Part shown: piece by piece, positions 30,443 to 47,580 of the stretch
How the letters are laid out: every line of letters begins with the position of its first letter
Position numbering within the stretch: the first letter of the stretch is position 1
From: Acidimicrobiales bacterium
GTDB lineage: Bacteria; Actinomycetota; Acidimicrobiia; Acidimicrobiales; Aldehydirespiratoraceae
DNA: 64,000 nucleotides
Assembly (NCBI GenBank): GCA_040219515.1
Contig: JAVJSI010000009.1
Location: forward strand, 124,001 to 188,000
Reading direction: 5' to 3'
Program-made: the position numbers and the translations under genes
Notes under the pieces: model-generated
The model's database searches: none
What the model was told of the DNA's origin: nothing
Seen by the model: only the letters and a program-made list of their open reading frames with translations

Positions 30443-30448
30443 TAGGGT
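30443..30448 (+). promoter_or_regulatory. -10 element for leaderless mRNA of the DsbA-type selenoprotein
   Basis: TAGGGT, then six bases (CGAAGT), then ATG 30455. It fixes ATG 30455, upstream of the in-frame TGA, as the real start rather than the internal GTG at 30566. Confidence 0.5.
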
Positions 30449-30454
30449 CGAAGT

Positions 30455-31087
30455 ATGCACGACCCCGTCCGCATCGTCGCCTGGTCCGACTTCCTTTGAC
30501 CGTGGTGCTACGTCGGGACAGTTCGTCTCGATGAACTGAAACGCCGCTTCGGCGATCAGATCGACGTGTCGTGGAAGGCCTTCCTCCTGCGCACCGAGTC
30601 CAAGGCCACCGACCAGGAGAAGTTCGTCGCCTACACCCGGTCGTGGTTGCGGGCGGCGCAGGTCGAGCCGGCCGCGGTGTTCAACGTGTGGTCGACCGAC
30701 GAGGCCCAACCGACCAGCAGCGTCCCCGCCCACGTCGCGGCCAGATCGCTCGCTCTGCTCGAACCGGCAGCGAGCGATGCGTTCCACCATCGCCTGCTGA
30801 CGGCGTACTTCACCGAGAACCGCACGATCTCGGACTGGGCGGTGCTCGCCGACCTGGCCGCCGACGTGGGCATCGACCGCAACGAGTTCCTCAGCATCAC
30901 GGCCGAGCGAGAACGCGCCCTCGCGGAAGAGGTGATCGCGGAACACAACGAGGCGATCCAGCAGGGCGTCACCGCCGTACCGACCATGGTCATCGACGAG
31001 GTTCTCCCGGTGCAGGGCGCCCAGGAGGTCGACACCATCTCGCGATGGATCGAGCGACTTCTCGAACGACGCCTCGGCGGTGCCTGA
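30455..31087 (+). CDS. DsbA/FrnE-family oxidoreductase, candidate selenoprotein (UGA = Sec15)
   Basis: Read through one in-frame TGA (30497-30499), the gene encodes 210 residues. The start, MHDPVRIVAWSDFL, runs into U-PWCYVG, where the family has CPWCYVG. The TGA therefore replaces exactly the first, nucleophilic Cys of CxxC (Sec15, Cys18). The rest is intact: a helical insertion (about 40-150) and GVTAVPTMVID (cis-Pro loop, about 172-182) as in DsbA/FrnE thiol oxidoreductases. A 9-bp hairpin starts 11 nt after the UGA with a G in loop position 2, as bacterial SECIS elements do. It is probably a cytoplasmic disulfide or peroxide-linked redox enzyme. The alternative is a simple nonsense mutation with reinitiation at GTG 30566, which would lose the active site. 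SelA, SelB and SelC are not in the window. Confidence 0.8.
30511..30533 (+). promoter_or_regulatory. SECIS-like hairpin downstream of the in-frame UGA
   Basis: RNA bases 30511-30519 (CGUCGGGAC) pair with 30525-30533 (GUCUCGAUG), nine pairs including two G-U, around the loop AGUUC. The stem begins 11 nt after the UGA and the loop 20 nt after it. Bacterial SECIS elements lie directly 3' of the UGA, with the apical loop about 16-37 nt away and a G in the first two loop positions; this one fits. Confidence 0.65.
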
Positions 31088-31442
31088 CACGTCGCCGCCG
31101 ACCCGCGTCCCCACCTTGGTGGCGCTCGTCGCGGTTCTCGTGCTCGTGGCCGTCGCACTCATCGCAAGCTGGGCCGTCTTCGCCCCCGCGGGAAACGACG
31201 ACGCCGTGAGACCGACGCGGTTCGTGGTGCGGTCGGTCACCGTGGAACTCGATGGGGAGGTCGTGCGGCTCTACGGCACCGCCCCGTCCGACGAGGCGAC
31301 GCAGGAACTCGTCGACGCGCTGTTCGCCCGCGACGACATCGCAGTGGTGATCAGCGCGCTGGTCGCCGATGCGACAGCACCGGCAGTCGCCATCTCGACC
31401 ATCGACACCACCATCGACATCGCGCGAGAGACCGGGAACTAG
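31080..31442 (+). CDS. Small membrane-anchored protein, BON-like domain
   Basis: A 120-residue protein starting at GTG 31080, overlapping the selenoprotein gene by 8 nt, so probably co-transcribed. A single membrane segment (about 11-35, LVALVAVLVLVAVALIASWA) is followed by an extracytoplasmic stretch. There VTVELDGEVVRLYGTAPSDE and an amphipathic helix TQELVDALF resemble half of a BON or OmpA-like periplasmic domain (beta-alpha-beta, often binding lipid or peptidoglycan). The match is structural impression only. No clear orthologue family comes to mind. Confidence 0.6.
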   Translation: MPDTSPPTRVPTLVALVAVLVLVAVALIASWAVFAPAGNDDAVRPTRFVVRSVTVELDGEVVRLYGTAPSDEATQELVDALFARDDIAVVISALVADATAPAVAISTIDTTIDIARETGN

Positions 31443-46917: not shown

Positions 46918-47580
46918 ATGGCCAACGGCACGGGGACCACGACACCGCAGAGACTCGAGCCTCCCGCGGCCGGCGCCATCATCTTCTACAGCAACATCGG
47001 GTGCCCGTACGCGCACGCAGCCCTCCATCGCCTGCTCGAGATTCGACGTGACCACGGCGTCGACTCACTCGTCGCAATCGACCATCGCCCGCTCCACAGC
47101 ACCTCGATCCGCCTTCTGCGCAACGGTGACATCGATCGGTGGGCGGCAACCGTGGATGCCCAGGCCCGCGAGGAGCCGGGTGCAGGCTGGGCGGCCCATG
47201 CCCCCGCGCACCGTCCCGAGACACAGCTCGCCCACGAGATGGTGCAGTCGGCCAAGGCCCAAGGGGCCGAAGCGAGCGTCGAACTCGACCGTCGACTCCG
47301 CGTCGGCTTCTTCAGGGATCATCTCGACCTCGACACCGTGGCCGCAGTCATGTCCGTCGCTGCCGATGTCGACGGGCTCGACCCCGACGAACTCGAGACA
47401 GAGTTCGCCAGCGGACGCGGCGCCACCGAGGTCGACCATCACACCGAGGTGGCTCGCGAAGCCGGCATCGTGAGCGGACCCGCCCTCGCCACCGCCGCCG
47501 GCGAGGTGGTTGCGGCGCTCGACGTCGACACTCTCGAGGACCTCGTGTGCCGTGCCGCGGCATCGAGTCCGGCCGAATGA
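46918..47580 (+). CDS. DsbA-family thioredoxin-fold protein with CPYA active site
   Basis: A 220-residue DsbA/FrnE/HCCA-isomerase-type protein. IIFYSNIGCPYAHAALHRLL (about 21-40) is the first strand and active-site helix; the CxxC has become CPYA, keeping only the nucleophilic Cys. A helical insert follows, and EAGIVSGPALATAAGEVVAA (about 180) is the cis-Pro loop region, with SGPAL in place of the usual VPT. A single Cys fits a glutathione/mycothiol-transferase or peroxidase-like activity better than disulfide formation. ATG 46918 lies six bases after AGGAG; ATG 46915 and GTG 46900 are in frame. Driven by a SigF-type promoter. Confidence 0.8.
   Translation: MANGTGTTTPQRLEPPAAGAIIFYSNIGCPYAHAALHRLLEIRRDHGVDSLVAIDHRPLHSTSIRLLRNGDIDRWAATVDAQAREEPGAGWAAHAPAHRPETQLAHEMVQSAKAQGAEASVELDRRLRVGFFRDHLDLDTVAAVMSVAADVDGLDPDELETEFASGRGATEVDHHTEVAREAGIVSGPALATAAGEVVAALDVDTLEDLVCRAAASSPAE

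Follow-up and report, generated by a model that had tools for sequence, protein, structure and literature searches.

DsbA-like selenoproteins carrying a UxxC motif have been described before, as far as the accessible portions of the sources go. In the Sargasso Sea study of 2005, nine such proteins assigned to COG2761 were predicted (PMC1088965), and D. radiodurans FrnE (DR0659) is listed under the same COG (PMC1978522). A survey from 2016 has the entry 'DsbA-like protein 41 45', which we take as the numbers of organisms and proteins (PMC5029168). FrnE with selenocysteine (Sec) is also recorded from eukaryotes, with green algae among them, and SelenoDB holds a family FrnE (DsbA) (PMC6627142, PMC3965025). 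A further type, DsbA-like form 2 with the motif DxxUP, is named as a crotonase/enoyl-CoA hydratase family protein in Table 1 of a review (PMC13188914, citing PMC5029168). Since UxxC proteins of COG2761 were predicted in 2005 and COG2761 corresponds to FrnE, the kind of protein described here was already known, and the first-pass annotation of this locus overstated its novelty (PMC1088965).

The window, a stretch of 64,000 nucleotides from an Acidimicrobiales genome, carries on its plus strand a reading frame that begins at an ATG start codon (30455-30457) and translates as MHDPVRIVAWSDFL*PWCYVG..., where the asterisk is a TGA in codon 15 (30497-30499). Beyond this TGA lie 195 open codons, and a second TGA (31085-31087) closes the frame. 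Translation of 30455-31087 therefore bears out the earlier description of a single frame of 210 codons interrupted at codon 15, and read-through yields a protein of 210 aa with a predicted Sec15. As that description also had it, the TGA falls on the first Cys of the CPWC active site, where homologues have TGC or TGT; an in-frame UGA thus replaces a Cys that is conserved in homologues. On the basis of the frame, the PF01323 domain, the recurrence of the TGA and the fold, we list 30455-31087 (+) as a predicted selenoprotein gene of the FrnE/DsbA family. From its sequence, we consider it highly probable that the product of the gene is a FrnE-type thiol-disulfide oxidoreductase (DsbA family), located in the cytosol and with Sec as the nucleophile (U-P-W-C). 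The last 8 bases of the FrnE gene are shared with an ORF at 31080-31442 (+), which had no Pfam match and is possibly translationally coupled to that gene.

The read-through protein matched PF01323 (DSBA) with 86.6 bits over residues 7-197, as expected of a full-length domain protein, and its AF2 model (pLDDT 93.1, pTM 0.90) had FrnE structures as the best fold match. The domain match and the model show a DSBA thioredoxin domain with an inserted helical domain and a cis-Pro loop, which places the protein in the FrnE/DsbA family. In 29 aligned UGA sequences the Pro, Trp and second Cys of the active site, present here as U-P-W-C, are invariant, as is the Pro of the TAVPT segment, which we take to be the cis-Pro. 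A profile of 29 UGA family members gave D. radiodurans FrnE as the best solved relative. Cys18 is the sole cysteine of the window protein, and the second, C-terminal cysteine pair of the D. radiodurans FrnE type is absent from its 210 aa; lacking any further Cys, the protein was not classed as a D. radiodurans-type FrnE. Its NCBIfam matches all stayed under the cut-offs, no signal peptide was seen in it by eye, and a plasmid search returned distant matches only (226 records, all <60% identity). Elsewhere in the window, positions 46978-47541 (+) gave a DSBA-domain match of 27.8 bits within a 772-aa open frame without stops.

The first-pass annotation had named the absence of selB and selC from the genome as the observation that would count against a selenoprotein. 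We found selA, selB, selD and a tRNA-Sec(UCA) in the genome (4.02 Mb, 19 contigs). In profile searches, selA (393.4 bits) and selB (276.4 bits, covering profile positions 2-342 of 581) both scored over their cut-offs and adjoin each other on contig C18, which also carries the tRNA-Sec (64 bits, anticodon TCA); selD scored 362.2 bits. The selD gene (L148, contig C16:95480-96403, minus strand) has an in-frame TGA of its own in HGAGUGCK, presumably the usual Sec site of SelD, so that SelD is itself a predicted selenoprotein. In a molybdopterin oxidoreductase gene (L153, contig C10:149123-150394, plus strand), an in-frame TGA gives the motif UHAP, in agreement with the UHxP motif that the available part of a review lists for formate dehydrogenase (PMC13188914); by its sequence the protein is probably a formate dehydrogenase alpha subunit. 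Together with the FrnE gene and an Rv2466c-like gene described below, the genome has at least four predicted Sec genes, in a search that covered PF01323, PF00384 and selD.

These findings bear on the question of whether, through code reassignment or read-through, the UGA could stand for another residue such as Trp or Cys instead of Sec. Nothing specific spoke for that alternative. The gene's own terminator is a TGA, which argues against a general reassignment of TGA; the Sec machinery is in place, the UGA occupies the position of the catalytic Cys, and the hairpin behind it is SECIS-like and kept in UGA forms. We regard decoding as Trp or Cys as very improbable. In the favoured reading, UGA codon 15 would be decoded as Sec through tRNA-Sec(UCA), SelA, SelD and SelB, with insertion directed by a bSECIS hairpin that starts about 12 nt past the UGA, and translation, probably of a leaderless mRNA, would run from ATG 30455 to the TGA at 31085-31087. 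The product would stay in the cytosol, where Sec15 may attack disulfides (or be attacked by thiols) and Cys18 may resolve the selenenylsulfide; compared with the Cys form, the Sec enzyme could work faster or be easier to reduce.

We then read the active-site codon across the order. A homologue at E<=1e-20 was present in 63/298 order genomes, and the codon was read in 62 of these, with G075 left out. It is TGA in 44/298 genomes including the present one and TGC or TGT in 18 others, one of which (G064) was counted as Cys because its active-site codon is TGC, though the match contains a TGA. Every one of the 43 matches with at least 40% identity has TGA here. Across the phylum, a profile search at E<=1e-40, a strict cut-off that leaves weaker homologues outside its scope, found 3/396 genomes with one TGA each; one of them (G470), scored for the presence of a TGA in the match, lies outside the order.

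A pseudogene or base error would make the TGA a disrupted Cys codon, and TGA is indeed one base away from a Cys codon (TGC/TGT). Since 43 further order genomes share the TGA, a base-calling error in this assembly is excluded. The 44 order genomes with TGA at the identical codon are independent assemblies, and on these grounds we rejected a sequencing error or pseudogene; purifying selection acts on both sides of the TGA (pN/pS), and the hairpin is retained in the UGA forms and not in the Cys forms. We assign this explanation next to no probability.

The Sec machinery is enriched among the genomes with a UGA form. A selA match (E<=1e-60) occurred in 43/44 UGA genomes vs 133/254 others (Fisher 3e-10), and a tRNA-Sec match (E<=1e-10) in 41/44 vs 135/254 (7e-8), both tests being uncorrected for relatedness. 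G170 (83% complete, 520 contigs) had neither match, and G195 and G286 were without a tRNA-Sec match. The machinery is also common in genomes without the FrnE-type UGA gene, and the 19 genomes with a non-UGA matched homologue (18 of them read) include 8 with selA and 9 with tRNA-Sec.

Alternation of Cys and UGA among relatives, which the first-pass annotation had proposed as a check, is present, with 44 UGA sequences vs 43 with a Cys codon (TGC/TGT; 18 from the order and 25 from a scan of named genomes). The scan found these 25 Cys relatives with the pattern LCPWC[YH]V[GA], which requires Cys and so cannot tell how frequent UGA forms are. A tree of 86 sequences (44 UGA, 42 Cys; L093 was too short to be included) has four state changes, at least two of them forced by well supported branches. 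In one clade with support 100/100, 43 UGA sequences stand together with 8 Cys sequences. Five of the eight (L083-L086 and L099) are Cys forms at 42-44% identity, titled Actinomycetota, Acidimicrobiia, Actinomycetota, Deltaproteobacteria and 'bacterium'; the other three are more distant. The remaining UGA sequence (L122, G286:C6:38950-39780, 35% identity) has its UGA in SDYLUPWCHL and belongs to a different DsbA subfamily, grouping with six Cys proteins (support 100/96). By its placement, this UGA is probably a separate gain.

If the TGA were a true stop, a shorter protein would start at GTG 30566 or another downstream codon. The ORF from GTG 30566 that the earlier description mentioned is present in the mechanical ORF list. 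Its product would have neither the first strand nor the active site, and the codons before GTG 30566 are conserved as protein. In seven same-family sequences, whose synonymous sites are close to saturation (pS 0.56-0.59), pN/pS was 0.16 over the ten codons that lead up to the UGA, 0.23 over the 22 after it (UGA to GTG) and 0.33 over the next 12 codons; 29 sequences gave 0.39 before and 0.33 after the UGA, again with nearly saturated synonymous sites. A promoter-like box also precedes the upstream ATG or GTG. In the window this is TAGGGT (30443-30448, +), separated from the ATG by 6 nt and a candidate for the -10 box of a leaderless promoter; no sigma-70 -35/-10 pair was found. Of the same-family sequences (L023-L029, which form about three near-identical groups), 7/7 have a TANNNT box 6-7 nt ahead of the start codon (ATG or GTG). 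Over all UGA sequences, TANNNT occurs 5-8 nt before the start in 21/44 and is absent in 23/44 (raw counts).

The coding-type pN/pS values and the TANNNT boxes indicate that the stretch before GTG 30566 is translated, and they support the earlier proposal of TAGGGT-N6-ATG with the upstream ATG as the start. By this sequence evidence, a start at ATG 30455, probably leaderless, is likely. A downstream start at GTG 30566 was rejected on the conserved upstream codons and the upstream box, and we think it very unlikely that the TGA is a true stop. ORF calling with TGA as a stop would lose the active site of such genes.

Published criteria for a bSECIS are a loop of 3-9 nt, a stem of 4-16 bp, a G in the first two loop positions, a spacing of 16-37 nt and an MFE <=-7.5 kcal/mol, as given in the available part of a review (PMC13188914). 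The predicted bSECIS of the window gene (30511-30533, +) has arms at 30511-30519 and 30525-30533 around the loop AGUUC (30520-30524). In line with the four published criteria, it has 9 bp, a 5-nt loop with GU at positions 2-3, a spacing of 20 nt from TGA to loop and -12.7 kcal/mol. We scored a stem of eight pairs at a fixed position (12 nt from UGA to stem, five-base loop) against a null of synonymous codon redraws (500 draws). The 42 distinct sequences among the 44 UGA sequences had 7.36/8 pairs vs 5.14 expected (0/500 as high), at a stem position picked after viewing folds of the same sequences, for which the synonymous null, the Cys homologues and a slid-partner control are a partial guard. 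At the same place, 41 Cys homologues had 3.80 pairs vs 3.99 expected (459/500 as high). The stem-loop is kept beyond the protein requirement in UGA genes and not in Cys homologues. A scan of all stem positions ranked the SECIS helix and its near variants first. L122 had 1/8 pairs at the usual stem place.

Aligning 30 of the 44 UGA sequences showed two pairs in which both sides had changed (10/224 cells). None of 500 shuffles reached the observed values for the count of these cells, the proportion of cells that pair or the covariation score; the number of pairs with both-side change (2) and that of pair types (7) were not above shuffles (272/500 and 263/500). Folding energy of the whole 51-base region was unexceptional against the synonymous null in the FrnE family (UGA sequences, mean z -0.61; Cys homologues, -0.84), and RNAalifold on the alignment recovered only the inner three pairs of the helix, plus a different outer helix. 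With neither of these in support, the case for a SECIS rests on the specific stem. Taken together, the Sec machinery, the recurrent TGA, the Cys/UGA alternation and the SECIS-like stem-loop strongly support the candidate selenoprotein of the first-pass annotation.

A second UPWC gene in this genome, with a covarying SECIS, belongs to the family of Rv2466c, a mycothiol-dependent nitroreductase (L005:1339-1950, contig C10, minus strand; protein P0003). Its product matched PF22234 with 144.2 bits, and the closest solved chains of its family include Rv2466c (PDB 5xur, E 3.9e-39). Homologues at E<=1e-20 were found in 191/298 order genomes. Among 39 sequences in which the codon was read, 31 have TGA (the 30 best-scoring and L116) and 8 have TGC or TGT; the latter (54-62% identity) were chosen for listing without a stop, and further stop-less matches with at least 50% identity were left out (G192, G252 and G170, a fragment ending short of the site).

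The SECIS of this gene is even better supported than that of the window gene. The UGA forms (25 distinct sequences) had 7.92/8 stem pairs compared with 6.42 under the null (0/500 as high), and the 8 Cys forms 5.38 vs 5.24 expected (216/500 as high). One of these Cys forms (L144, G134:C1:127130-127990) has all eight pairs intact and is possibly a recent Sec-to-Cys change. One stem pair links a Thr codon to a Val codon through their third bases. G-C, A-U, C-G, U-A and U-G all occur at it, and in four sequences both partners have changed; since both third bases are synonymous, this is covariation without amino-acid change. The whole-region folding energy had a mean z of -1.31 in UGA and -0.26 in Cys forms against synonymous redraws.

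In a tree of the 39 sequences the Cys forms are scattered. The tree has six changes (bootstraps 5-7), just one of them required by well supported branches; this family may have gained or lost Sec several times. G273 and G152 hold Sec and Cys copies of the gene together. In G235, the FrnE-type and Rv2466c-type UPWC genes lie side by side in the same orientation (L116, G235:C1:69258-70800), and this adjacency suggests that the two UGA genes are functionally linked. With somewhat less than even confidence, we propose that the lineage runs a selenium-based cytosolic thiol-redox pair of Sec-FrnE and a Sec form of the Rv2466c family, the latter of which would be an unrecognised selenoprotein family. 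No published report of a Sec protein of the Rv2466c family was found in the literature on Rv2466c with selenocysteine or on mycothiol-dependent with selenoprotein, and no paper on selenoproteins of Ilumatobacter was found.

A set of related Sec and Cys enzymes with hairpins allows a direct test of why Sec is retained and of how a bSECIS that must also encode a fixed peptide evolves. New here is a predicted FrnE Sec gene in a conserved group together with a second, related candidate Sec enzyme in the same genome.

Among known systems, D. radiodurans FrnE (PDB 5cp1, 5cnw, 5xwh) gave the best sequence-profile matches (E 4.5e-24 and 4.6e-24), and 5xwh is the best fold match of the window model (E 1.1e-10, 26% identity). 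Its solved chain has 260 aa vs 210 aa in the window protein, and it presumably has Cys where the window protein has Sec, as well as a second, C-terminal cysteine pair. Rv2466c (PF22234) represents the family of the second UPWC gene and not of the window gene; we assume that Rv2466c itself has Cys where the L005 gene has TGA. With the DsbA-like selenoproteins of the literature (PF01323, UxxC; PMC1088965 and Table 1 of PMC13188914, in their available parts), the window protein shares the domain and the UxxC motif, and the listed example NIP15863.1 is likened to it by the description of domain and motif. Eukaryotic Sec-FrnE, likened by description, is a FrnE with Sec like the window protein, but eukaryotic (PMC6627142, PMC3965025). 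Both UPWC proteins of this genome read D-x-x-U-P (DFLUP and DPIUP), as does DsbA-like form 2, so that this form, compared by motif in the accessible part of the review (PMC13188914), could be the Rv2466c-like selenoprotein.
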